Shown here: positions 950 to 18,951 of the stretch, piece by piece
Layout: each line of letters opens with the position of its first letter
Position numbering within the stretch: the stretch's first letter is position 1
Source: a bacterium
Lineage (GTDB): Bacteria > Armatimonadota > JACIXR01
Direction of reading: 5' to 3'
NCBI GenBank assembly: GCA_014360465.1
Contig: JACIXQ010000022.1
Location: 1-33,052, forward strand
DNA: 33,052 bases
The notes under the pieces: generated by a model
What the model was told of the DNA's origin: nothing
Databases searched by the model: none
The model's input: the letters and a program-made list of their open reading frames with translations, nothing else
Position numbers and translations under genes: made by a program

Positions 950-1975
950 ATGCAGGAAGGCTATAACATAGCTGTTGTCGGCGTTGGCGCAGTGGGAGAG
1001 GAACTTCTAAAAGTTCTCTCCAAATCAACTTTGCCAATTAAGGATTTGAAGGTTCTTGCTCGCACGAGCAGACCTATTGAGGTTGAGGGAAAAATCTACA
1101 CGGTGAGGGAAACAAAACCCGATGAATTTGACGGGGTAGATATAGCGCTCTTTGCTGGCACGGAGAGGGCAAGTGAGCTTTTCGCTAAAGAAGCAGTGAA
1201 AAGGGGCGTGATAGTCATAGACAATTCCGCCACATTCCGCCTCGAACCGGATGTTCCACTCGTTGTCCCGGAAGTGAACCCGGAGGATTTGGAGTGGCAT
1301 AAGGGCTTGATAGCTAATCCGAACTGTTCAACAATCCAGATGGTCGTCGCTCTTAAGCCTCTCTATGACCGCTCACGTATAAGGCGAATTTTCGCTGCTA
1401 CATATCAAGCCGTTTCTGGAACGGGAAGGGATGCAATAACCGAGTTGCGTCAGCAGTCAATCCTTCAACTCGTCTATCACGAGGAAGTGAAGATGACCTA
1501 CGCCTACCCCTATAGGATAGCCTTCAACTTGATTCCTCAAATCGGTTCCTTTGATGAGAGAGGCTACACAACAGAGGAAATGAAGATGGTGAACGAGACA
1601 CACAAGATATTCCACGACCCCGAGATAAAGATAACTGCCACCTGTGTTCGCGTGCCAGTTTTCAATTGCCACAGCGAGGCGGTGTACATAGAAACGGAGG
1701 AGAAAATAACAGCCGAGGAGGCAAGGGAGCTTCTACGAAATTCTCCCGGCATAAAGGTCATAGACGAACCTTCTCCACACTCCGGCAGAAGTTACCCGAT
1801 GCCAATCGACGCCGATGGAAGGGACGAGGTCTTTGTAGGAAGGATCAGGGAAGACCCATTTGTGGAAACAGGACTTCATCTATGGATAGTCGCCGATAAT
1901 CTGCGCAAAGGCGCCGCTCTCAATGCTGTGCAAATAGCGGAAGAATTACATAAAAGGGGATTAATAAAAAAGTAA
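950..1975 (+). CDS. asd: Aspartate-semialdehyde dehydrogenase
   Basis: Converts aspartyl phosphate to aspartate semialdehyde using NADPH, at the entry to lysine, threonine and methionine synthesis. The N-terminal Rossmann motif is VVGVGAVGEELL. The catalytic Cys is C126 in NPNCST, the segment YQAVSGTGRDA lies near residues 152-162, and the substrate-binding Arg and catalytic His lie in RVPVFNCHSEAV (H241). The length of 341 aa fits the family. A strong AAAAGGAGG site precedes the ATG. It lies 15 nt after dapB and probably shares its promoter. Nothing looks damaged. Confidence 0.96.
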   Translation: MQEGYNIAVVGVGAVGEELLKVLSKSTLPIKDLKVLARTSRPIEVEGKIYTVRETKPDEFDGVDIALFAGTERASELFAKEAVKRGVIVIDNSATFRLEPDVPLVVPEVNPEDLEWHKGLIANPNCSTIQMVVALKPLYDRSRIRRIFAATYQAVSGTGRDAITELRQQSILQLVYHEEVKMTYAYPYRIAFNLIPQIGSFDERGYTTEEMKMVNETHKIFHDPEIKITATCVRVPVFNCHSEAVYIETEEKITAEEARELLRNSPGIKVIDEPSPHSGRSYPMPIDADGRDEVFVGRIREDPFVETGLHLWIVADNLRKGAALNAVQIAEELHKRGLIKK

Positions 1976-1978
1976 AAA

Positions 1979-2560
1979 TTGCCTCTCACAGGACCTATCT
2001 GGTTGATGCAACCAATTCCCTATTTCGGGGAAGAGTTGGAAGGAGAATGGATTTGGGAACCAAAAGTTGATGGATGGCGAATGCAGGTCCTGAAGTATGA
2101 TGATGGGAGAGTGGGAATCTGGGGGAGGCGATTGGAGCGCCATCCTGACTGGACGCCTCGCCTCCCCTATTTAGTAGAGTGCGCCAGCAAAATTTTACCA
2201 CCAGGCACTCTCCTTGATAGCGAATTATCCCATCCACAAGGGAGAAGATATATCCCTTCCCTTTTCACCTCCAAGGGTTCTAAAGATGCCCAAATCCTCG
2301 TATTTGACATAGTTTTTCTTGAAGGGGAATTCATCGGAAACTTACCACTAAATCAAAGAAAAGAACTTCTTCTTTCCTTAAAGCTAACTCCTCCCTTCTT
2401 CATCCTCCCTTTCAAACCAATCCAGAACCTACCAAAACACTTACAGGAAGCAATAGAAGAAGGGCACGAGGGAATCGTCATCAAAAATCTTTCTTCCACC
2501 TATATTGTAGGAAAAGAAGCTCCAATAGCGACGGAAAACTGGCGAAAAATCAAGGCTTAA
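1979..2560 (+). CDS. Stand-alone ATP-dependent DNA ligase adenylation domain
   Basis: The protein has the nucleotidyltransferase motifs of ATP-dependent polynucleotide ligases: motif I EPKVDGWR with the AMP-accepting Lys (K29), motif III VFDIVFLEG, motif IV EGIVIKNL, and motif V WRKIKA at the very C-terminus. It stops right after motif V, so the OB-fold domain carrying motif VI, usual in ligases, is missing. At 193 aa it is only the catalytic core. The TTG at 1979 follows the asd stop by 3 nt with no clear ribosome binding site nearby; ATG 2006 in the same frame also leaves motif I intact. It may join DNA ends with a partner, or act in another AMP-transfer reaction; I cannot tell which. It ends tail to tail with the next gene, sharing a TTAA. 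Confidence 0.82.
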   Translation: MPLTGPIWLMQPIPYFGEELEGEWIWEPKVDGWRMQVLKYDDGRVGIWGRRLERHPDWTPRLPYLVECASKILPPGTLLDSELSHPQGRRYIPSLFTSKGSKDAQILVFDIVFLEGEFIGNLPLNQRKELLLSLKLTPPFFILPFKPIQNLPKHLQEAIEEGHEGIVIKNLSSTYIVGKEAPIATENWRKIKA

Positions 2561-3078
2561 GTAGAGCTTTCAGCGGAACTTTTCCCCGAAACGAGCTCCG
2601 TCCACTTCTTTGCTAACTCATCCCTGCGTGGTTTATATACAGTCTCATAGAAATATCGCTGGGAAAGCAAGACCCCCTTGTCGTATTGCCTGCATATGTT
2701 GAGGGCTTCCTCCCAGGCTTGAGAGAAGAAATCACCGAAGCGAGAAGCAATTTGCTTCTTGAAAGCTTTTTCATCCTGGATTTCCTTACCGATGGTAAAA
2801 AGAAGTTTTCCGTTTATCTCAACGCTGTAAGCCATCTCGTCGCCAAGATGATATACACCGAAGCCTTTCCTTAATTCCTCTATCTCCTCTTTCCTCTTCT
2901 GGGGAAATAGGTCCTCAAGCTTGGGAGCTGGCATCGCCTTCTTAAATCCTTTCTTCGCCGCAGCATAGAAAATAGCCCTATTTAGTCCCCAGCTGTAAGC
3001 ACTCTCTAAGGGCAAGCCTAAAATATGAGCTCTTGCCGCTTGAAGCAACGCCATAACCTGAAACCTACCAACCGCCAT
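2557..3078 (-). CDS. Uncharacterised protein, 173 aa
   Basis: I do not recognise this family. The protein is soluble-looking, rich in Lys, Glu and aromatic residues, with no signal peptide or membrane segment. The first 50 residues are predicted-helical and Ala-rich; the central part (about 60-100) has alternating charge and a short stretch that could be a beta-hairpin (YSVEINGKLLFTIGK). The last 70 residues look helical with several Tyr/Phe. The start is secure: an AAGGAGG site lies 9 nt before ATG 3078. It converges with the ligase-domain gene and is monocistronic as far as the window shows. Codon use looks like that of its neighbours, so it is probably a real gene. Confidence 0.7.
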   Translation of the reverse strand: MAVGRFQVMALLQAARAHILGLPLESAYSWGLNRAIFYAAAKKGFKKAMPAPKLEDLFPQKRKEEIEELRKGFGVYHLGDEMAYSVEINGKLLFTIGKEIQDEKAFKKQIASRFGDFFSQAWEEALNICRQYDKGVLLSQRYFYETVYKPRRDELAKKWTELVSGKSSAESST

Positions 3079-3172
3079 ATTAATTTTCCTCCTTATTTAA
3101 TATTTTACACCATTCTAACTTAAAGGTAAAGCTTTCACCCGCACCTTTCATCAAAAATAAATATAATTTTAC

Positions 3173-3310
3173 TATCGCACGGCTCTCGGATAAGAGGAGA
3201 TAGTCCTCTTATCTTTTTAAGATATGGAGAGTAGCGGGATACATCTCTCTAAACAAATAGCATAAAGACTTTAAAGTTGGTAAAGAGCAAAAAGAGATAC
3301 AGGTCTTTAT
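3173..3310 (+). pseudogene. Decayed transposase fragment of the local IS
   Basis: 3173-3185 matches transposase positions 17868-17880 exactly. From 3186 on, the sequence resumes at the equivalent of about 17980, implying an internal deletion of about 95-100 bp. The stretch 3214-3253 is then close to identical to 18001-18042 (for example GAGAGTAGCGGGATACATCTC). Weaker matches to 18716-18765 (ATAAAGAC, GGTAA, GCAAAAAGA) suggest that a further scrap extends to about 3310. No open frame survives. It lies in the same orientation as the intact copy. Confidence 0.75.
3189..3218 (+). terminator. Perfect 10-bp hairpin followed by five T
   Basis: GATAAGAGGA (3189-3198) pairs perfectly with TCCTCTTATC (3204-3213) around the loop GATAG, and TTTTT follows. 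On the plus strand this has the form of an intrinsic terminator. It lies inside the decayed IS fragment, between the converging genes ending near 2560 and the leuA promoter, so it could stop plus-strand read-through from dapB-asd. The stem has only four G:C pairs, so strength is uncertain. Confidence 0.45.
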
Positions 3311-3477
3311 ACATCGCGATTAAATCAGGGGGGATCCCGGATGCCCTGGGAACTTCTATCCACCATTCCATAAATAAGTAGACCCACTCTTTATCCTTAG
3401 CGGGGACAATGTTTCTTTTTGTCTGGGGTTAAGGGTGCAAACAATTCCGGAAAGGAACGATTCTCTCACCTACCAAC
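3311..3477. other. Non-coding stretch upstream of leuA
   Basis: This is the remainder of the 448-bp gap between 3078 and 3527, after the IS fragment. I see no open frame with a ribosome binding site, no tRNA and no clear T-box or leader-peptide structure for leuA. It may include further IS debris too degraded to align by eye. Confidence 0.4.
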
Positions 3478-3505
3478 TTGACAAATTCTTTAAATGAAGT
3501 ATTAA
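3478..3505 (+). promoter_or_regulatory. Putative leuA promoter
   Basis: A consensus TTGACA (3478-3483) is followed by TATTAA (3500-3505) after 16 bp, or ATTAAT after 17 bp. The start would lie near 3511, placing the AGAGGTGAT ribosome binding site almost at the 5' end of the mRNA, so the leader is very short. That leaves no room for attenuation downstream of this promoter. Confidence 0.5.
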
Positions 3506-3526
3506 TATGTTAAGAGGTGATATTTC

Positions 3527-5050
3527 TTGCCAGATAAAGTCTATCTTTTTGATACAACTTTGAGGGATGGCGAGCAATCGCCAGGTGCCTCATTATATCC
3601 GGAAGAAAAGCTCCAAATCGCCCAACAACTTGCTCGTCTTGGGGTGGATGTGATTGAAGCAGGCTTCCCCATCTCTTCAAGAGGAGATTTTGAAGCTGTC
3701 AAACAAATAGCCGAGATGATAGAAGGACCGATAATCTGCGGGCTTGCAAGGGCAAAAGAAGAGGACATCAAGGTAGCGGGAGAAGCCCTTAGATTGGCTA
3801 AAAGGAAGCGCATCCACACATTCATTGCCACATCTGAAATCCATATGAAGAAGAAATTGGAGATGACACCCCAAGAGGTTAAAAAAGCAGCAATTGAGGC
3901 TGTTAAGCTCGCTAGGGAGTTCACGGATGATGTGGAGTTCTCCGCTGAGGATGCAACCCGCTCCGATGTGGACTTCCTCTGCGAGGTCTTTGAGGCTGTC
4001 CTTGAAGTTGGAGCAACGACTATAAACATTCCCGATACGGTAGGCTATGCTCTTCCCTGGGAATTCGGCGAATTGGTCAGGAAAATAAAGGAGAATGTCA
4101 GAGGAATAGACAAAGCCATAATAAGTGTCCATTGCCATAACGATTTAGGGCTCGCCGTTGCCAATTCCCTCTCCGCTCTTATGAATGGAGCCCGCCAAGT
4201 TGAAGGCACGATAAACGGCATAGGTGAGAGGGCAGGGAACGCAGCCCTTGAAGAGGTCATTATGACCATCGTCACCAGAAAGGATGCTATTCCTTTCCGA
4301 GTTGATGTAGATACAACCCAAATCTACCGCACAAGCAGGCTCGTTTCCGACCTCACTGGCTTGCCAATCCAGCCAAACAAGGCAATCGTGGGAGATAATG
4401 CCTTCGCTCACGAGGCTGGTATCCATGTCCATGGAGTTATGAAGGATAGAAGAACCTATGAGATAATAGACCCTCGCCAGGTGGGAATTCCTCAAAGCAG
4501 GATTGTCCTGGGCAAACACTCCGGAAGACATGCCTTTGAGGAGAAAATCAGAGAATTGGGATACGAGTTATCAAGGGAAGAACTTGCTCGCGCCTATGTC
4601 CGCTTCAAGGAAATTGCCGATAGGAAAAAGGGGATCACGGATAGGGATATTGAAGCTATAATCTCCGACGAAATTTTTGCTCCACCTGAGACATTTCGTT
4701 TAGATTATGTTCAGGTGACCTCGGGTTCAGGGCTTCTACCCACAGCTACAGTGAGGCTCACAAAGGAAGAATCCTCTTTCGTGGAATCGGCTGTGGGAGT
4801 AGGTCCAGTGGATGCAATCTACAAAGCCATAGCAAAAGTCTTTTCCATCCCTCACCAGCTTGTTGATTTCAGGGTAGAATCAATTACAGGAGAAACGGAA
4901 GCACTTGGTGAAGTTACCGTCAGAGTGGAGAAGGACGGAAGGATACATAGCGGGAAGGGGGCTTCCCAGGATATCTTAGAGGCGGCGGCAAAAGCCTATG
5001 TTCAAGCCTTGAATAAACTACTCGCATTTAGCGGAAAGGAAGGTAGATAG
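3527..5050 (+). CDS. leuA: 2-isopropylmalate synthase
   Basis: Condenses acetyl-CoA with 2-ketoisovalerate, the first committed step of leucine synthesis. The N-terminal HMGL-like barrel opens with [12 protein letters not shown] (metal and substrate binding), carries [13 protein letters not shown] with the metal-binding His pair, and [13 protein letters not shown]. The C-terminal third, from about residue 390, matches the allosteric LeuA dimer domain that binds leucine. The length of 507 aa is that of the bacterial LeuA type 1 family. It starts at TTG 3527, 7 nt after an AGAGGTG site. The HTH gene begins 1 nt after its stop. No other leu gene is in the window. A homocitrate or citramalate synthase is less likely given the full motif set and length. 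Confidence 0.95.
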
Positions 5051-5051
5051 T

Positions 5052-5627
5052 ATGTCTGATAAAAAGATAAGTGCCCAAGAGGTTGCAAAAAGATTGGGAA
5101 TAAGCCTTGCCAAGCTCATCAGCTGGCAGAAGAAAGGAGCACTCCCTCCTGCTCCAGTGAGGGGAAAGAAAAGATTTTACACAGAAGAATATGTAGAAGA
5201 GGCGAAGGAATTCCTCCAAAAGCACATCGGGGTGAAGGATGTCAAAAACATACTCGGGATAACCGATTCGCTCCTTTCCAGATTGGTAAACTCCGGCTTG
5301 CTGAACGCAAAGCGTATCGGTGGCAGACGGATTTTCCTCAAGGAAGAGGTTGAAGAACTTAAAAAGAAATACCCTACTCCCAAAGCCCTCAAGGACATTG
5401 TGAAGGACCAGGTTGGGCAATCGATCAGCTGGTTGGCGAAGGAATTGGGAATCAGCCGACAAACTTTCTACACCTGGTTGCGCAAGGGAATCATATCCCT
5501 TCCGAAAAAAGGAGACAAGGTTTTCATTACTTCACAGTTTCTCCGGGAAATAAAGGAGAAATTAGCCCAAAGATTGGAACAAGCTCATAGGATAAAGGAG
5601 CAGGTTCTGAGAAGCAGAGGGCAGTGA
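5052..5627 (+). CDS. Three-module helix-turn-helix DNA-binding protein
   Basis: The 191-aa protein consists of three tandem excisionase/MerR-like winged helix-turn-helix units. Module 1 (about 5-55) has ISAQEVAKRLGIS and a following wing (GKKRFYTEEYV). Module 2 (about 58-110) has VKDVKNILGITDSLLSRLV and a wing (GGRRIFLKEEVEEL). Module 3 (about 121-175) has ISWLAKELGISRQTFYTWL and a wing (GDKVFITSQFLREI). Each resembles the HTH_17 type that reads short DNA sites. There is no sensor, recombinase or catalytic domain, so it is probably a structural DNA-binder or regulator. It sits between leuA and lnt, overlapping lnt by 4 nt, and must be co-translated with them; that tells little about its target. 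Confidence 0.8.
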   Translation: MSDKKISAQEVAKRLGISLAKLISWQKKGALPPAPVRGKKRFYTEEYVEEAKEFLQKHIGVKDVKNILGITDSLLSRLVNSGLLNAKRIGGRRIFLKEEVEELKKKYPTPKALKDIVKDQVGQSISWLAKELGISRQTFYTWLRKGIISLPKKGDKVFITSQFLREIKEKLAQRLEQAHRIKEQVLRSRGQ

Positions 5628-12723: not shown

Positions 12724-13965
12724 TCAATCTCCCATAAGCCAATTATAGAGCTGAGCGGAAATATTTGAATGGTGGAGCACTTCCTTGGCTTTCTTATCTC
12801 TCCTTGTTAGATTCAAAAGAATTCTACAATAATCCCTTAACAACCAGAGACCTCGGCTTATCCAGCGAACAATATAAAAAATATAGATGCGAGGGGAAGA
12901 AAGTGGTATTCCGTAAATAGCGGAGATGATTTCCCTTGGTGGAAAAAGAACCCTGCGGAAGAGCGATATTCTCTTTCTCCATCCCCTGCTATGCCTAACT
13001 CTCGAAAGAAATGAATGAGGCATTTTCAGGTGGCGGTCTTGCGCTCCTAATTGTTCTATAGCTAATTCAATATAGCACTTATCAAAGTCGGATGGTTCAA
13101 TAGAAGAGAGCCACATCGGGGATATATCGGTAGCAAAAAGCTGGCTGGTAATTCGGAGGATCAAATATACTGGACGAATTACACCCCATTTTTTTGCACG
13201 GGCTGAAATCGCTTCCCAATTCATTTCCTTCCCTTGCCGTTTTATCAGTTCGTTGATATCACAGAGCATCCTAAGAGATATGCCCAAAGAAGTATGGATA
13301 GCTGTATGAAGGCAGAGATGGATGAGGAGGTCATCAGGCGAAAGCACCAAAGCCTTAACATCGCCTAATTTTATTTCCTTGGCTCTTGTCCAGATTTCCT
13401 CTGCTCCCTTAAAAGGTAAGTGCCATCCCAGAAGCTCCCATTGAAGGTCTAAAAATATACCTTTACCGGGTAAATTATAGTGTAAGGCCCTTACCCCTTG
13501 AGCACCCAATAGCTTGCAATTATGTGTATTTTTCCAACCAAGCGATAACAAAATATTGTGTGCCTCTCGTATGTGCTTCTCTTGAATTAATATATCGATA
13601 TCCCCCATAGGTCTAAGTCCTATATTTTCATAAACCATTGCCAGATATATACCTTTTAGAAGAAGCAAAGGGATTCCCTTTCTATTAAACACCCTCAGAA
13701 TTCTTTGCGTTTCTTCATATAGTATGCTGTTGCGGAGGGCGGTTTTGAGAAAAGCCTGTTTTACTTTTTCTTCAAGCTCTTTTGGTATGGAGATGTCCAA
13801 CTCTTTCAAATAATGATATAAAAGGGGCAAAACTTCCTGCTTCATCGCCTCCTCAATCAGCGCTTCCCATTCTTCAGGGGAAAGGTTTGCCAGACTTTTC
13901 TTCTCCGCCTCATCACGATTCCCAAGAAGGATAAGTAAATTCTCTAAGGCTTTATTATTCATCAT
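12724..13965 (-). CDS. NTP_transf_5-type nucleotidyltransferase of the peptide operon
   Basis: The 413-aa protein matches the uncharacterised nucleotidyltransferase family PF14907. After a helical N-terminal part, IPLLLLKGIYLAMVY and GLRPMGDIDILI (residues 99-127) give the family signature, with the D-x-D metal ligands D122 and D124. Further family features are the HTAIH segment near residues 220-225 and the helical C-terminal half. Members occur in several RiPP clusters, including paeninodin-type lasso clusters with an HprK-like kinase; the reaction there is not firmly established to my knowledge. It overlaps the S26-GNAT gene by 11 nt and is the last gene of the operon. It probably modifies the peptide or transfers a nucleotide to a phosphorylated intermediate (inference). 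Confidence 0.82.
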   Translation of the reverse strand: MMNNKALENLLILLGNRDEAEKKSLANLSPEEWEALIEEAMKQEVLPLLYHYLKELDISIPKELEEKVKQAFLKTALRNSILYEETQRILRVFNRKGIPLLLLKGIYLAMVYENIGLRPMGDIDILIQEKHIREAHNILLSLGWKNTHNCKLLGAQGVRALHYNLPGKGIFLDLQWELLGWHLPFKGAEEIWTRAKEIKLGDVKALVLSPDDLLIHLCLHTAIHTSLGISLRMLCDINELIKRQGKEMNWEAISARAKKWGVIRPVYLILRITSQLFATDISPMWLSSIEPSDFDKCYIELAIEQLGAQDRHLKMPHSFLSRVRHSRGWRKRISLFRRVLFPPREIISAIYGIPLSSPRIYIFYIVRWISRGLWLLRDYCRILLNLTRRDKKAKEVLHHSNISAQLYNWLMGD

Positions 13966-14917
13966 TCCTCCAACGCATCACTACATAAGAATGATTGCGA
14001 AAACGAGGGTCAGTTTTAAGAAATTTTTCCACATCCGGTAAAGTTATCTTCTCAAAATTGAGCTTCTCGTAAAGAGAAATTGCTGGTTTGTTATCCGCTC
14101 TTACGAAAAGGAAAACCTCCTTCGCTCTTTCCTTCCTCGCCTCTTCAAGCAAGCGCCTCATCAATGCTTCGCCCACACCCAAACCCCGATATAAGGGGGC
14201 GACATAAAGCGAATATATCCAATGCCCCTCAAAAGGAGCATCTTCTTGAGGATGGTGATAAAGGTTAACGCTACCTATTATTTTTTTACCCATCTTAGCG
14301 ACGAATATCTTCCTTCTCTTTTCAAAAAGCGAAGCCTTACCCTCTTCGTAATCCTGATATAGTTGAGAAATATCCTCTACGGTGGCATAGCCCACCTCGT
14401 ATTTCAGGAAACGCCTTCCTAATCTCCTGTAGCAAGATGAACTCTGAATGAAACGCAAACAAATCCCCGCAAGGTGTTTAAATGGTCTTATAAAACTTCT
14501 CAATATCTGACGAAGAAAACGATTAAGGGGAAATAGATGCACCCAAAGAATCCCCACAATGTGGGGTAAGCCCCGAGATAAGTCAAACCCTCTCCCACCC
14601 CTATAACATCTTACAACCTTCCCTATGATGTTCTCTTTCCCAAATGGACCCTCCAGACTATTTAATGAATCACCCCTCAAATAAAATAATTCTCCCTTCA
14701 CCTTCACAACCCGATGCATAACATATTTGCCATCCGCCCTTCTTATCAACAGTATATCTCCGAATTTGGGCTGAAAATTAAATGACTCTAATTCAACGAC
14801 ATCGCCATTCCTGATGAAGGGAAACATACTGCTTCCTTTAGCGGTGAGTCTAACCCGTTGCCCTCTCTTAAGAGATTCCTCAATGAGAGGCTCCAGCTCT
14901 CGCAGGTTAATGTTCAT
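13955..14917 (-). CDS. S26-type signal peptidase fused to a GNAT acetyltransferase
   Basis: Residues 20-105 match the S24/S26 peptidase fold: GSSMFP with the nucleophile Ser (S30), KFGDILLIRR, YVMHRVVKV with His (H68) in the base position as in the SipW/archaeal type, and a RGDS segment (81-84). A stretch at about 115-170 is basic and hydrophobic and may touch the membrane. Residues 175-315 are a GNAT domain with YVAPLYRGLGVGEALM as the acetyl-CoA loop and a C-terminal NKPAISLYEKLNF motif. The ATG overlaps the kinase stop in an ATGA. In this operon the peptidase half is the best candidate to remove the precursor leader, and the GNAT half could acetylate the freed N-terminus (inference). Confidence 0.82.
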   Translation of the reverse strand: MNINLRELEPLIEESLKRGQRVRLTAKGSSMFPFIRNGDVVELESFNFQPKFGDILLIRRADGKYVMHRVVKVKGELFYLRGDSLNSLEGPFGKENIIGKVVRCYRGGRGFDLSRGLPHIVGILWVHLFPLNRFLRQILRSFIRPFKHLAGICLRFIQSSSCYRRLGRRFLKYEVGYATVEDISQLYQDYEEGKASLFEKRRKIFVAKMGKKIIGSVNLYHHPQEDAPFEGHWIYSLYVAPLYRGLGVGEALMRRLLEEARKERAKEVFLFVRADNKPAISLYEKLNFEKITLPDVEKFLKTDPRFRNHSYVVMRWRNDE

Positions 14918-15774
14918 AATATTGATTTTATCAGATTTAACGCCTCTTGTTTAGGGCGCCAGCGAAGAAGATAAAGGGGAACTCTGGCGATAATATCGTG
15001 AATGCTTTTCATAGATAGCTCAAGCAGATGCTCATCCCACCAGGGGATGAAGGCACGTGCCAGAAGCATCGGAGTGGCAAATGGAGGTAGAGGATGGATT
15101 TCTATCTCGGGTGATTTCTCCAGGAGAAGAATCGCCCGCAAGGGGACAGAATGATTGGAGGCTATCTCAGCACTCCCACCCCAAGGTGTTCCATAACAGA
15201 ACACCTCATCCCCAATAACCCTGACAGCTATCCTGTCATCGCTCATCACGATTACATTCGGCTCATTTTTCCAAAAATTCGCCATCGTGCTTTTTCCCTC
15301 CCCAGAGTGACCAACTATCATTATCCCCTGTCCATTATAATCAATGCCCGCGGCGTGGAAGACCAAACCACCTGTAATCGGCATCTTAACCCTTAGGATT
15401 ATCTCGCCTCCTCCTATCCCGAACACACTTTGCCATCCATCTTTTCCCCTCTTCTCCTTCATCACGATATTATCCCATTCCTTATCAGCTATGATAACTG
15501 CTTTATTCTCCTCGCCACCATATCTGATTTCCGCATAAAACCCTTCTCCATTCCTAAAAAGCCTCCATATAGAGCCGGGGTCAAATATCAAATCGCCCAT
15601 TGCCCTCGGTTCCTCAAGGCTTTCCTCCCAACGAAGATGAACTCGGGCGAAAGGATTTTTCGGTATCCCCAAAAATGAGGCATATCTCTTCTCAATCCCC
15701 ATTTCTTTTAAGGATAAGGAGCTTTCAACCTCTATGAGTATATCAGCTATGGAAATATAAAATTTATGGCGCAT
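14914..15774 (-). CDS. HprK-like kinase of the peptide operon
   Basis: The 286-aa protein has the HPr-kinase-type P-loop GHSGEGKST (residues 155-163), preceded by FHAAGIDYNG and followed by VMSDDRIAV (D179, D180) and CYGTPWGG, the pattern of HprK-like proteins found in peptide-modifying cassettes such as ScmC of SynChlorMet and the kinase of paeninodin clusters. The sensor domain of true HprK is absent and the first 120 residues are family-specific. Start: ATG 15774 has an AGAAGGAAG site 5 nt upstream and overlaps the radical SAM stop; an in-frame ATG at 15804 has no such site. In paeninodin the kinase phosphorylates the C-terminal Ser of the precursor. Both precursors here also end in Ser, which makes them plausible substrates. 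Confidence 0.85.
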   Translation of the reverse strand: MRHKFYISIADILIEVESSLSLKEMGIEKRYASFLGIPKNPFARVHLRWEESLEEPRAMGDLIFDPGSIWRLFRNGEGFYAEIRYGGEENKAVIIADKEWDNIVMKEKRGKDGWQSVFGIGGGEIILRVKMPITGGLVFHAAGIDYNGQGIMIVGHSGEGKSTMANFWKNEPNVIVMSDDRIAVRVIGDEVFCYGTPWGGSAEIASNHSVPLRAILLLEKSPEIEIHPLPPFATPMLLARAFIPWWDEHLLELSMKSIHDIIARVPLYLLRWRPKQEALNLIKSIL

Positions 15775-16819
15775 AAATCTTCCTTCTCTCTTTAGCGATT
15801 TCACATAGATAAGGAACAGGTTCGGTCAATGTTCCGTTTTCTAAGTATGACCAGGCGGGACAACGGGGACAGAAGATGCGGTCCTCACAAGCTTGGCAAA
15901 TGGGTGAGAGGGGAGGAGCGGTGTCAACGAACTTCTGAACCTCTTCCCAGGCTGATTTGAAGCCAATTTCCAGTGGCTTTGCCGAAGGGAAAGGCAAGTC
16001 TATACAGATGTTCATCTCCCCAGATGGGGTTATAACGAAGGTGCTTTTTCCCGCTAAACAGTAAAAGTTTTCCTCAGAATTCTTCTCTCCCCTTAGCACG
16101 GCTTCCTGCCACTCAGTAGCGGAGATTTGGTCAGTTGCCTCAAGCATAACACATTCTCTTGCAGATAAGCGGCAATCCTTTACCTCTGAGGGCGCTCCAT
16201 CTCTTCTTTCCGTGAGTAGCCAAGACCCAATAAAAGGTACGCCGAAACTATGCGCCAGTTGGCGCATAGCCTCCAGCTCTCCAACATTCTGACGTGTGAT
16301 AGTTGTTTTCAACAAAAGGGGCAGCCTTTGCTCTAACAATGCTTCTATCCCTGCCAAACATTGGGCATAGCTGCCGGGAATACGGGTTACAGCTTCATAG
16401 GTCTTTTCCGTTGCGCCATAGAGGGTGATTTCAATTCTATAAGGTGGTGATTGGGCGATGCGTTTGGCTACTTCCTTCGTGATGAGCGTTCCATTTGTAA
16501 AAAGGATGAGCAAGATACCCAATGGCTTGAGCCCTTCCAAGATTTGGAAGAAACCGGGATGGAGCAATGGCTCGCCACCAGTGAGAAGGAGGAAAAGCAT
16601 CCCATTATCCACCGCTTCTTTCCCTAACAATATCCATTGCTCGGCGCTGAGCTCACTCTTAAGCTGAGCGCTATCTTTGGGGGGGTTATTTATATAACAC
16701 ATACGACAACGAAGATTACATCGAGCAGTAAGTTCAAATGTTCCATTTAGGGGAATACGAGAGTTTGCCGCCTTCTTGTTCAGCTCCTCAACAAATTTCC
16801 TGAAATCGGCGTATTCCAG
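15764..16819 (-). CDS. Radical SAM/SPASM peptide maturase, apparent CTG start
   Basis: The radical SAM cluster motif is CNLRCRMC (Cys 34, 38, 41 with a start at CTG 16819). LLTGGEPLLHPGF follows, then GTLITKE and EITLYGATEKTYEAV, typical of the AdoMet barrel. The C-terminal SPASM region (about 255-345) has CLAGKSTFVITPSGEMNIC and then CQACEDRIFCPRCPAW...C, for auxiliary Fe-S clusters. Between the upstream TAG and the first in-frame ATG (16702, inside the Cys motif itself) there is no ATG, GTG or TTG. A perfect AAAAGGAGG sits 7 nt before CTG 16819, which I take as the start. Together with the PqqD-like gene and the two precursors it is the likely core-modifying enzyme, perhaps forming thioether or other bonds at the Cys residues (inference). 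Confidence 0.88.
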   Translation of the reverse strand: MEYADFRKFVEELNKKAANSRIPLNGTFELTARCNLRCRMCYINNPPKDSAQLKSELSAEQWILLGKEAVDNGMLFLLLTGGEPLLHPGFFQILEGLKPLGILLILFTNGTLITKEVAKRIAQSPPYRIEITLYGATEKTYEAVTRIPGSYAQCLAGIEALLEQRLPLLLKTTITRQNVGELEAMRQLAHSFGVPFIGSWLLTERRDGAPSEVKDCRLSARECVMLEATDQISATEWQEAVLRGEKNSEENFYCLAGKSTFVITPSGEMNICIDLPFPSAKPLEIGFKSAWEEVQKFVDTAPPLSPICQACEDRIFCPRCPAWSYLENGTLTEPVPYLCEIAKERRKIYAP

Positions 16820-16883
16820 CTGAACACCTCCTTTTGAGGAGAGTGTTACATCGCTTTTTCCCTATATAACTCTTGGAAAGCCT

Positions 16884-17150
16884 TTAATCCTCCACTAATC
16901 CTGTTTCTCTTAGCTCCTTTAAAAAATTCTCAACATCAATCCTCGCTTGGGCTATATCAACATCAAACTCCTCCGATAAGGCTATAGCGAGCTCTTCAGC
17001 GGAACGTTCTTCCTCCAACAATTCCCAAAGATAGGCTCCCGTTTCGTTCAAGGTTATAACGGCGTTCAAATCCAAAACTTCCTGCCCTATCGGAACAAGA
17101 ATATTTAAATCTCCTACCTTACGCAACAAAAAATTAACCTTCCGTCGCAT
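16884..17150 (-). CDS. PqqD-like peptide-recognition protein
   Basis: The 88-aa protein is a stand-alone PqqD-family RRE (PF05402). The family pattern is clear: VLDLNAVITLNETGAYLWEL, SAEELAIALSEEFDVD, then VENFLKELRETGLV. RRE proteins bind the leader of a precursor peptide and present it to the tailoring enzyme. It lies 46 nt after the second precursor gene and 64 nt before the radical SAM gene. No clear ribosome binding site precedes ATG 17150, so the start is a little uncertain. In lasso systems an equivalent protein reads the YxxPxL leader motif, which both precursors here contain. Confidence 0.9.
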   Translation of the reverse strand: MRRKVNFLLRKVGDLNILVPIGQEVLDLNAVITLNETGAYLWELLEEERSAEELAIALSEEFDVDIAQARIDVENFLKELRETGLVED

Positions 17151-17196
17151 TAATTAAATTAAAAGTATTAGCTTTAATTCCGTAAATACCCATTAG

Positions 17197-17343
17197 TTAC
17201 GACCAGTGGATAGGTAGTCCCTCGCACCCACCTCCACCTTGCCCCGGCGGAAACTTGCCACAGGAAAGGAGTCTTTCCTCCACTTTGAGAGGAACTACAG
17301 TTAACCTCGGTGCTTCATATTTCCTTTTCTTTTGCTCTTTCAT
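17197..17343 (-). CDS. RiPP precursor peptide 1 (48 aa)
   Basis: The leader, residues 1-26, has the lasso-type recognition motif YEAPRL at residues 9-14 and a charged segment KVEER. From residue 27 the putative core is SCGKFPPGQGGGGCEG followed by LPIHWS, with two Cys (28 and 40), a Gly run between them, and Ser last. ATG 17343 has an AAGGAGG site 8 nt upstream; an in-frame ATG at 17382 lacks one. Gene position, leader motif and comparison with the neighbouring copy are the evidence that this is a precursor and not noise. Where the leader is cut and how the core is modified are unknown. Confidence 0.8.
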   Translation of the reverse strand: MKEQKKRKYEAPRLTVVPLKVEERLLSCGKFPPGQGGGGCEGLPIHWS

Positions 17344-17418
17344 TAAGAAAACCTCCTTCTCTTTTAATTGATAGCGTTTCATTTACTGAGCTCGAATCCA
17401 GCAATAAAAGAATACGAG

Positions 17419-17544
17419 CTATGACATCACCAAAACACAGGTAGCATTATCGTCCTTCGCGCAGATAAGGAACCTTTCCTCCGCCCTGAGAGGAACTACA
17501 GTTAACTTCGGTGCTTCATATTTTCTTCTCTTTTGCTCTTTCAC
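17419..17544 (-). CDS. RiPP precursor peptide 2 (41 aa), paralogue of precursor 1
   Basis: GTG 17544 stands 6 nt after a GGAGGTG site and opens 41 codons ending in TAG. The first 30 residues match precursor 1 at about 22 positions, including MKEQK, RKYEAP, LTVVPL and EER. The core then differs completely: after CAK comes DDNATCVLVMS, again with two Cys (28 and 36) and a C-terminal Ser. A conserved leader with a variable core is the hallmark of duplicated RiPP precursors. The gene is short enough that automated callers may miss it. It is the first gene of the operon, and its start codon lies only 48 bp from the end of the insertion sequence. Confidence 0.78.
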   Translation of the reverse strand: MKEQKRRKYEAPKLTVVPLRAEERFLICAKDDNATCVLVMS

Positions 17545-17591
17545 TCAGAGCACCTCCATTATAAAATTTTGCTCTCAAATTTGAAAAATCT

Positions 17592-17617
17592 CCGCTCTTC
17601 CTCAAAAATAATTTACT
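17592..17617 (+). repeat. Left terminal inverted repeat of the IS
   Basis: Pairs with 18969-18994. The same left end is present at 32841-32866. Confidence 0.8.
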
Positions 17618-17647
17618 CGAAAAGGGGTAGTTTCCTCAATAATAATG

Positions 17648-17675
17648 ATGACAAGAGGCAATCATCCCCTACAAT
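17648..17675 (+). promoter_or_regulatory. IS transposase promoter with fold-back arm in its spacer
   Basis: ATGACA (17648-17653), 16 bp, TACAAT (17670-17675): five of six consensus bases in each box. The spacer is occupied by AGAGGCAATCATC (17654-17666), whose exact complement lies at 17715-17727 over the transposase start codon. Transcripts from this promoter begin near 17682 and lack the upstream arm; read-through transcripts contain both. The same arrangement is kept at 32895-32922 in the second copy. Confidence 0.6.
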
Positions 17676-17727
17676 TTATTCCTATAACAAACCTTCTAAA
17701 AGGAGGTGTAAGAAGATGATTGCCTCT
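17654..17727 (+). repeat. 13-bp perfect inverted repeat over the transposase start
   Basis: Arms 17654-17666 and 17715-17727; the second arm contains ATG 17716 and the loop contains the AGGAGGTG site (17701-17708). Conserved in the second copy at 32902-32914 and 32963-32975, although the copies differ elsewhere in the leader. Confidence 0.85.
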
Positions 17728-18951
17728 ATTCCGAAAGAAGTATACTCCCTTGAGGGCAAACGTGCAATAATAAAAGCGAATGCCACCAGGTACAGAGAAT
17801 CAACAAAGAAAGAGAAGACGCTTTTACTTAATGAGTTATGTACAATTCTACACTGGACACGCTCTTATATCGCACGGCTCTTGAGGGGATGTGGTAAAGT
17901 GATATACTTCAAAGGGGTAAGATTTTTAGGGGAATGGGATAGCAGAAGTATACATAGGAGGGGAAGGAAAAAGATTTACTCGGAAGAGATAGTCCCTTAT
18001 CTTTTGAAGATATGGAGAGTAGCGGGATACATCTCCTCTAAGCACTTAAGGGTTTACATTTCTGCAAACAGCGATAAGTTATTCTCCCATCCTGAATTAG
18101 TGTCCGTATCGGAGGAGATAAAGGAGAAACTACTGAAAATAAGTCCCGCTACAATAGATAGACTGCTCAAACAGCATAGATGGAAATTGAGAGCCAAGGG
18201 GAAATACAAAAGCAATCCCTTCAGCTCAAATGTTAAAAGAGCCGTTCCCACGGAAAGCTATTTTGATAAGAGAAAGGAAACCGGGGATATGGAAGTGGAC
18301 ATTCTCTACCATAGTGGGGAATCAGCAAAAGGAGAATTTTTCTTCACGCTTACCGCCACGGAAGTGACCACGGATTGGACGGAGTTGCGCCTTTTAAAGA
18401 ATAAAGCTATGGTGTGGACTGTAGAGGCTTTGAAGAGCATCATCAGTGATATGCCTATAAATGTAAAGAGTATACACACGGATAACGGTTCAGAATTCTT
18501 GAACCATCATATGTATAGATTTTGCCAAGAGAAGGGTATAAAGTTTAGGCGTTCTCGTCCCTATCGCAAGAATGATGCTCCCTATGTAGAGAGCAAGAAT
18601 TGGTCACTTGTTAGGCGTTATACAGGTTGGCGGCGATATGATTCGGAAGAAGAAGGCGAGATACTGAGAACACTTCTTTACCTTCTAAGTTTGAGGCACA
18701 ACATTTTTACTCCTACGATAAAGACAAAAGGCAAGGTAAAGGAAGGTGATAAGGTAAGAGTGCAAAAAGATATCAACACACCATACAATAGAGTGTTAGA
18801 ACTTTCCGAAGTATCGGAGGAGACGAAGGAAAAACTAAAGGCAATGAGAGCTAATATAGACTTATTTGAACTATCAGAACGGATTGAGATGTTGGAGAAA
18901 AGACTTGACAAAGCATATCAAATAAAGGTAAGGAGGTATAACAATGAATAA
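17716..18951 (+). CDS. DD35E (rve-type) transposase
   Basis: The 411-aa protein has a basic helical N-terminal DNA-binding part (about 1-185) and an integrase-like catalytic domain. The catalytic triad is D195 in GDMEVDILY, D256 in IHTDNGSEF and E292 in APYVESKNW, with the classical 35 residues between the last two. A coiled Lys/Glu-rich tail follows. ATG 17716 has AGGAGGTG 7 nt upstream, and the second copy of the element begins at the same codon, so the longer upstream frame is not coding. It appears intact. The family resembles rve-type transposases with an N-D-x-x-Y-V-E motif; closer naming needs a database. Confidence 0.9.
   Translation: MIASIPKEVYSLEGKRAIIKANATRYRESTKKEKTLLLNELCTILHWTRSYIARLLRGCGKVIYFKGVRFLGEWDSRSIHRRGRKKIYSEEIVPYLLKIWRVAGYISSKHLRVYISANSDKLFSHPELVSVSEEIKEKLLKISPATIDRLLKQHRWKLRAKGKYKSNPFSSNVKRAVPTESYFDKRKETGDMEVDILYHSGESAKGEFFFTLTATEVTTDWTELRLLKNKAMVWTVEALKSIISDMPINVKSIHTDNGSEFLNHHMYRFCQEKGIKFRRSRPYRKNDAPYVESKNWSLVRRYTGWRRYDSEEEGEILRTLLYLLSLRHNIFTPTIKTKGKVKEGDKVRVQKDINTPYNRVLELSEVSEETKEKLKAMRANIDLFELSERIEMLEKRLDKAYQIKVRRYNNE

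Follow-up and report, generated by a model that had tools for sequence, protein, structure and literature searches.

The closest described relatives of the gene set analysed here, a seven-gene operon on contig JACIXQ010000022.1 of an Armatimonadota genome, are clusters for ribosomally synthesised and post-translationally modified peptides (RiPPs), namely the pathway of linear polyphosphorylated peptides (LPPs) and the lasso peptide pathways of the paeninodin type. The lpp cluster of Paenibacillus alginolyticus, published in May 2026, has a core set consisting of a RiPP recognition element (RRE), an SpI-type S26 peptidase, an HprK-like kinase and an NTP transferase, together with an MsbA-like transporter; its leader peptidase LppS is an archaeal-type signal peptidase that acts in an RRE-dependent manner and needs S29, H68 and D93, and LPPs have been described as confined to Bacillota (PMC13381572). 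In paeninodin-type lasso pathways the kinase PadeK phosphorylates the C-terminal serine (PMC9266682). Lasso kinases require an H-K-D-D motif, and in some lasso clusters the B2 protease is fused to a nucleotidyltransferase (PMC8498205). Finally, the RRE-Finder survey counted as false positives about 300 RREs that were retrieved by its model of discrete lasso RREs and that co-occur with radical S-adenosylmethionine (SAM) enzymes (PMC7470986).

The operon occupies positions 12724-17544 of the minus strand. The window, i.e. the whole stretch of DNA that was analysed, is the entire contig of 33,052 bases (C77) from a 2.69-Mb genome that is 97.8% complete; 291 genomes of the same phylum served for comparison. 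The original prediction had proposed a new RiPP operon with two precursors, a PqqD-type protein, a radical SAM/SPASM enzyme, an HprK-like kinase, an S26-GNAT fusion and an NTP_transf_5 protein, and all seven genes are indeed present as open reading frames (ORFs) with the expected domain matches. As we show here, the gene set is a conserved and widespread RiPP cassette. Judged from sequence comparisons, it probably specifies a phosphopeptide pathway similar to those of LPP and paeninodin, with a radical SAM enzyme in place of the lasso cyclase.

Results

Precursors, leader and cassette in two phyla

Precursor p1 (17419..17544, minus strand) is an ORF of its own that starts with GTG behind the Shine-Dalgarno sequence TGGAGGTG and encodes VKEQKRRKYEAPKLTVVPLRAEERFLICAKDDNATCVLVMS: a leader with YxxPxL, a core of the form CxK...C and a C-terminal serine. 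Precursor p2 (17197..17343, minus strand), which most likely starts at the ATG at 17343 behind the Shine-Dalgarno sequence AAGGAGGT, encodes MKEQKKRKYEAPRLTVVPLKVEERLLSCGKFPPGQGGGGCEGLPIHWS and also ends in serine. Both match the leader profile described below (E=1.4e-10 for p1 and E=6e-11 for p2). The predicted leader motif and its sharing by two short peptides were borne out, with 76% identity between the p1 and p2 leaders; the C-terminal serine had escaped the original prediction, as had a third precursor, MKKQKKRKYEAPRLTVVPLRAEERLLSCGKIRGQAPLCELSPDVS, encoded in trans in the same genome (contig C149, 155-244, minus strand, locus L130) with no biosynthetic genes around it. Since p1 and p2 are this similar and the third leader is p2-like (90%), the shared leader is not a matter of chance. 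The gene next to the third precursor encodes a long SpoIVB-like secreted protein, as judged by eye.

In other loci of the phylum, short ORFs with the leader [YW]xxPx(hydrophobic)...V.L..EE...L..C lie next to the radical SAM gene, either 5' or 3' of it, and many precursors sit in trans rather than in the operon. A leader-only profile (A2; 26 positions, 13 aligned precursors, core excluded) found precursors in 24 of the 291 genomes, 19 of them at E<=1e-4, and the radical SAM gene is present in 15 of these 19. There were 27 matches at E<=5.4e-5, 24 of which end in serine though the profile contains no core. Applied to 346 genomes of Nitrospirota, the phylum of L025 (one of the 13 profile rows) and otherwise unused in noticing the C-terminal feature, A2 gave 23 matches in 20 genomes, again with a C-terminal serine in nearly all precursors.

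The cassette travels with the leader. Radical SAM homologues in the home phylum are 29-53% identical to that of the window, and those at 34-53%, along with a few weaker ones, have PqqD, HprK-like, S26 and mostly NTP_transf_5 genes as neighbours, usually in an unchanged order. Matches of family f4, 30% identical and with no PqqD gene nearby, were set aside as a different branch. The arrangement PqqD-rSAM-HprK-S26(-NTP), where rSAM stands for radical SAM, is repeated in many genera of the phylum and in Nitrospirota, where PqqD-rSAM-HprK-S26 adjoins the precursor in 18 of the 20 genomes with a leader match (in one of the 18, G292, the radical SAM gene is cut by a contig edge and the region was read from two loci). 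Homologous operons that go without any YxxP-leader ORF would have spoken against this reading, but the comparison did not bear this out: when the operon itself has no precursor, one usually lies elsewhere in the genome. Given this co-occurrence of leader and cassette across two phyla, the locus is almost certainly a RiPP operon.

Across all 50 collected precursors the C-terminal residue is serine in 45, as compared to 58 of 720 background ORFs (8.1%); counted by genome, precursors are all serine-ending in 34 of 39 (binomial p about 2e-32, without correction for relatedness). Cysteine is found in the core of 49 of the 50 precursors, mostly two or three times, and in all 49 the first core cysteine lies 19-20 residues past the leader Tyr/Trp. 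In 40 of the 50 a lysine comes at most two residues after this cysteine, and the core pattern can be written C-x(0,1)-K-x(n)-C. The cores are very variable within and between genomes, with three different ones in the genome of the window. In a distinct sub-family, L171, L174 and L181, the variant cassette contains three radical SAM ORFs, and its precursor has the unusual core CSLSAMSVSNGGGGGC...GPRAS.

The RRE and the radical SAM enzyme

The PqqD-type discrete RRE, a peptide chaperone (16884..17150, minus strand; PF05402, 69 bits), has lasso PqqD models as its top NCBIfam matches, below cut-off. As the first step of the pathway it would, with good confidence, bind the [Y/W]xxPx(hydrophobic) leader of the three precursors, two from the operon and one supplied in trans.

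The radical SAM/SPASM maturase (15764..16819, minus strand; PF04055) most likely starts at the CTG at 16819, which is preceded by AGGAGGT. The only long ORF with an ATG start begins at 16702, inside the CxxxCxxC motif; the start was placed upstream because initiation at 16702 would remove this motif. CxxxCxxC is invariant among the homologues, as are the SPASM cysteines 254, 272 and 320, whereas Cys 308, 311, 317 and 339 are kept at >=90%. Compared with solved structures, the enzyme matches SkfB best (3.6e-29), followed by PqqE (2e-24) and 5wgg (5.7e-15), which we take to be CteB. In a second step it would cross-link the core, and thioether rings formed from the cysteines of the C-x(0,1)-K-x(n)-C pattern appear the moderately likely outcome. 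Alternatively, the enzyme could form a different kind of cross-link or alter the backbone, for example at the lysine near the first cysteine, with the cysteines forming disulfides or binding metal. The frequency of that lysine speaks for this alternative, as does a profile that matches PqqE, which forms a C-C bond, as well as the sactisynthase SkfB. We nevertheless regard it as rather unlikely: cysteine is the most constant core residue and is held at a fixed distance from the leader, and SkfB is the best structural match.

The HprK-like kinase and the C-terminal serine

The HprK-like kinase (14914..15774, minus strand) overlaps the radical SAM gene by 11 nucleotides (nt) and has H140, the P-loop K161, D179 and R181; these His, Lys, Asp and Arg residues are invariant in 22 copies, and most of the kinases keep H-K-D-[DE]-R. 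Its predicted model (predicted local distance difference test score, pLDDT, of 94) has a fold that matches PEPCK and HPr kinase. The type of kinase goes together with the end of the precursor: 41 of 43 precursors that are paired with a kinase having Arg after the acidic pair end in serine, as compared to one of four paired with [DE]-E-Y kinases (Fisher p=0.002, with small numbers and a post hoc grouping). Only the [DE]-E-Y group departs from the pairing with serine, L090 being the exception within it. Covariation of the second Asp of the motif with the C-terminal serine was considered and dropped, since Nitrospirota kinases with D-E-R also pair with serine, although the covariation looked clean in the home phylum. 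Four loci (L035, L036, L038 and L090) combine Trp-type leaders, up to five core cysteines and [DE]-E-Y kinases; three of the four lack the C-terminal serine.

By analogy with PadeK, the kinase is likely to phosphorylate the final serine of the precursor. The nucleotidyltransferase-family protein NTP_transf_5 (12724..13965, minus strand; PF14907, 216 bits) would then add a further group to the serine phosphate, by analogy with pseudomycoidin a sugar; that the phosphate carries a sugar or a nucleotide is close to an even call.

The S26-GNAT fusion

The product of the gene at 13955..14917 (minus strand) consists of an S26 domain of the archaeal/endoplasmic reticulum (ER) signal peptidase type (residues ~1-115) and a GNAT domain (residues ~170-320), which bears out the predicted S26-GNAT fusion. 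S30, H68 and D83 of the S26 part are invariant across the aligned set, so that the catalytic Ser/His/Asp are kept as in LppS; the nearest relative is the ER signal peptidase SEC11C (E=9e-10). The notion that the fusion is unique to the window was rejected: it recurs in L044, L085, L167 and L168, i.e. in both phyla, and also in L096 and L098, without a radical SAM gene nearby. Other cassettes have S26 alone or fused to NTP_transf_5, the latter in L030 and L165. Since these S26-NTP fusions parallel the B2-nucleotidyltransferase fusions of lasso clusters, they support the view that S26 is a functional stand-in for B2. By analogy with LppS, the S26 domain would cut ahead of the first core cysteine to take off the leader, the substrate being presented by the RRE. 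The GNAT part is nearest to N-alpha-acetyltransferases (RimI, Naa50, Naa60 and Ard1) and to streptothricin-type acetyltransferases. On this likeness we offer the speculation that it acetylates the newly made N-terminus ('cut and cap'), a step that we consider possible, though on the doubtful side.

Gene layout, neighbours and related loci

The tight packing claimed for all seven genes holds for the last four, the radical SAM, HprK, S26-GNAT and NTP genes, which are joined by 4-11 nt overlaps, but not for the first ones, as the gaps between precursors, PqqD and radical SAM gene are 46-75 nt. Divergent from p1 lies an IS481/IS3-like transposase gene (17533-18951, plus strand), and C149 carries pieces of a similar element (L130 6357-6984) roughly 6 kb away from the third precursor. 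Elsewhere in the window, a protein encoded at 5052-5627 (plus strand) has several excisionase/MerR-type helix-turn-helix matches (HTH_17, three stretches). The only results of a search for defence genes were a generic radical SAM (viperin) match and, in the acetyltransferase region, a weak one.

No radical SAM gene was detected near L096, L097 and L098, three loci that encode HprK-like, PqqD and S26-type proteins; they are possibly a relative of NCBI's HPr-rel-A type systems. In L030 (1260-3000, minus strand) two further ORFs, both judged by eye, stand beside the cassette; one is HprK-like, the second of its kind there, and the other resembles a sulfotransferase.

Discussion

The case for an LPP/paeninodin-like phosphopeptide pathway that uses a radical SAM enzyme relies on a gene order kept in two phyla, the leader, the cysteine pattern, the C-terminal serine and intact catalytic residues. 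Tentatively, we go one step further and propose a new RiPP class, present in at least two phyla, whose products have radical-made cysteine rings and a phosphorylated, nucleotidyltransferase-decorated C-terminal serine, the leader peptidase being fused in some members to an N-acetyltransferase that caps the N-terminus. If so, both ends of the peptide would be chemically blocked, one by an acetyl cap and the other by the decorated serine. This hints at a possible role for the S26-GNAT fusion, and the leader profile together with the C-terminal serine provides a simple mining handle for a family spread over two phyla.

Several observations run counter to the proposed pathway. L090 pairs a [DE]-E-Y kinase with a serine-ending precursor, the precursor of the L166 cassette ends in threonine, and in L084 a cysteine-free precursor that ends in lysine accompanies a D-E-R kinase. 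LppK phosphorylates Ser3 of the core and not the C-terminus (PMC13381572), and kinase homology alone thus leaves the site unfixed. Searches with the radical SAM gene and the leader profile did not find the cassette in the two genomes of the same genus, in which the flanks lie on different contigs, so that neither offers a clean empty site. The larger ORFs of the window (33 kb) show no transporter gene beside the operon. The L084 locus (1833-4375), where HprK-like and NTP genes stand beside the leader-type precursor MKKHYEAPEVRLIPVRPEDAVLQQYGSPEQEALKQVGLGSGDSGK with no radical SAM gene, is possibly a linear cousin.

One may ask whether the locus is simply an LPP cluster to which a radical SAM enzyme has been added locally as a tailoring enzyme. 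The RRE, SpI-type S26, HprK-like kinase and NTP transferase do make up the LPP core set, with matching catalytic residues. However, the LPP leader motif YxxPxVLxHQxIxFETxxS is lacking, no MsbA-like transporter is found among the larger ORFs of the window, a C-terminal serine takes the place of core Ser3, the radical SAM gene belongs to the conserved core and is no occasional guest, and LPPs are described as restricted to Bacillota (PMC13381572); such a cluster is clearly unlikely. Even less probable is a peptide-derived cofactor or signal that resembles pyrroloquinoline quinone (PQQ) or mycofactocin and is not secreted. The models that the radical SAM enzyme matches include those of PqqE and the mycofactocin maturase, which would fit a cofactor; so would the several precursors in trans found in several genomes and the fact that neither a transporter nor an immunity gene stands beside the operon. 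Cofactor precursors are normally conserved, whereas the cores here are highly variable. A paeninodin-type lasso pathway with cyclase and B2 encoded elsewhere and the radical SAM enzyme as an accessory, to which the YxxPxL leader, the lasso-like RRE, the HprK-like and NTP_transf_5 genes and the C-terminal serine might point, is nearly refuted, since in this ~98% complete genome Transglut_core3 (B2) has no match at E<=0.1 and Asn_synthase (PF00733) only short partial ones, and since a radical SAM gene adjoins nearly every cassette in two phyla.

How, then, does the LPP/paeninodin-like pathway with its radical SAM enzyme compare with known systems? With LPP it shares the discrete RRE, the YxxP leader, the archaeal-type S26 with Ser/His/Asp, the HprK-like kinase, the NTP transferase, several variable precursors and the lack of a lasso cyclase. 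It differs in that LPP has no radical SAM enzyme and yields a linear product, while here a radical SAM/SPASM enzyme is a conserved core member, and in that the precursors have only YxxP in common with the LPP leader and carry a cysteine core and C-terminal serine instead of core Ser3. With the paeninodin/pseudomycoidin-type lasso clusters (padeK, thcoK, psmN) it shares the discrete RRE, a YxxPxL-like leader, the HprK-like kinase with its H-K-D-D type of motif, the C-terminal serine and the nucleotidyltransferase; those clusters use the macrolactam cyclase C and a Transglut_core3 B2 where this cassette has radical SAM and S26. Neither lasso protein is encoded in the operon, in agreement with the original prediction, and a lasso peptide was rejected as a class assignment. 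SynChlorMet (NCBIfam ScmC-ScmF) likewise brings together PqqD-like, radical SAM/SPASM and HprK-like proteins, but has two radical SAM genes rather than one. Membership was rejected, as the proteins of the window score far below cut-off (98/400 bits for radical SAM against ScmF, 29/125 for HprK against ScmC and 19/100 for PqqD against ScmD); no description of SynChlorMet function was found in the papers searched. A SynChlorMet-like cassette with an NTP_transf_5 gene does exist in the phylum (L092 2463-8613; two radical SAM enzymes nearest to ScmE and ScmF, HprK-like and PqqD). The sactipeptide and ranthipeptide maturases SkfB, CteB and PapB resemble the present enzyme in being radical SAM proteins with SPASM clusters whose substrates have a cysteine-containing core, whereas the partnership with a discrete RRE, a kinase and an NTP transferase is different, and the thioether type is a prediction here.

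The claim that the operon matches no class therefore needs qualification: the radical SAM enzyme, cysteine core and C-terminal serine set it apart from LPP, but four of five enzymes are the LPP core set and three are common to paeninodin-type lasso clusters. No class with this gene set is named in NCBIfam, Pfam or the papers searched. We found no paper that treats radical SAM, HprK and precursor peptide jointly in the literature searched; a description may exist in the subscription literature, which lay outside the search. These shared genes suggest that the RRE, leader peptidase, HprK-like kinase and NTP transferase form a modular RiPP phospho-core to which a lasso cyclase is added in one case and a radical SAM enzyme in the other. 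The family connects three observations: the ~300 RREs of the lasso model adjacent to radical SAM genes, the C-terminal serine kinases of the paeninodin type and the RRE-dependent LPP leader peptidase. The RREs of the first group were reported without precursor, kinase or class; the present family probably accounts for some of them.

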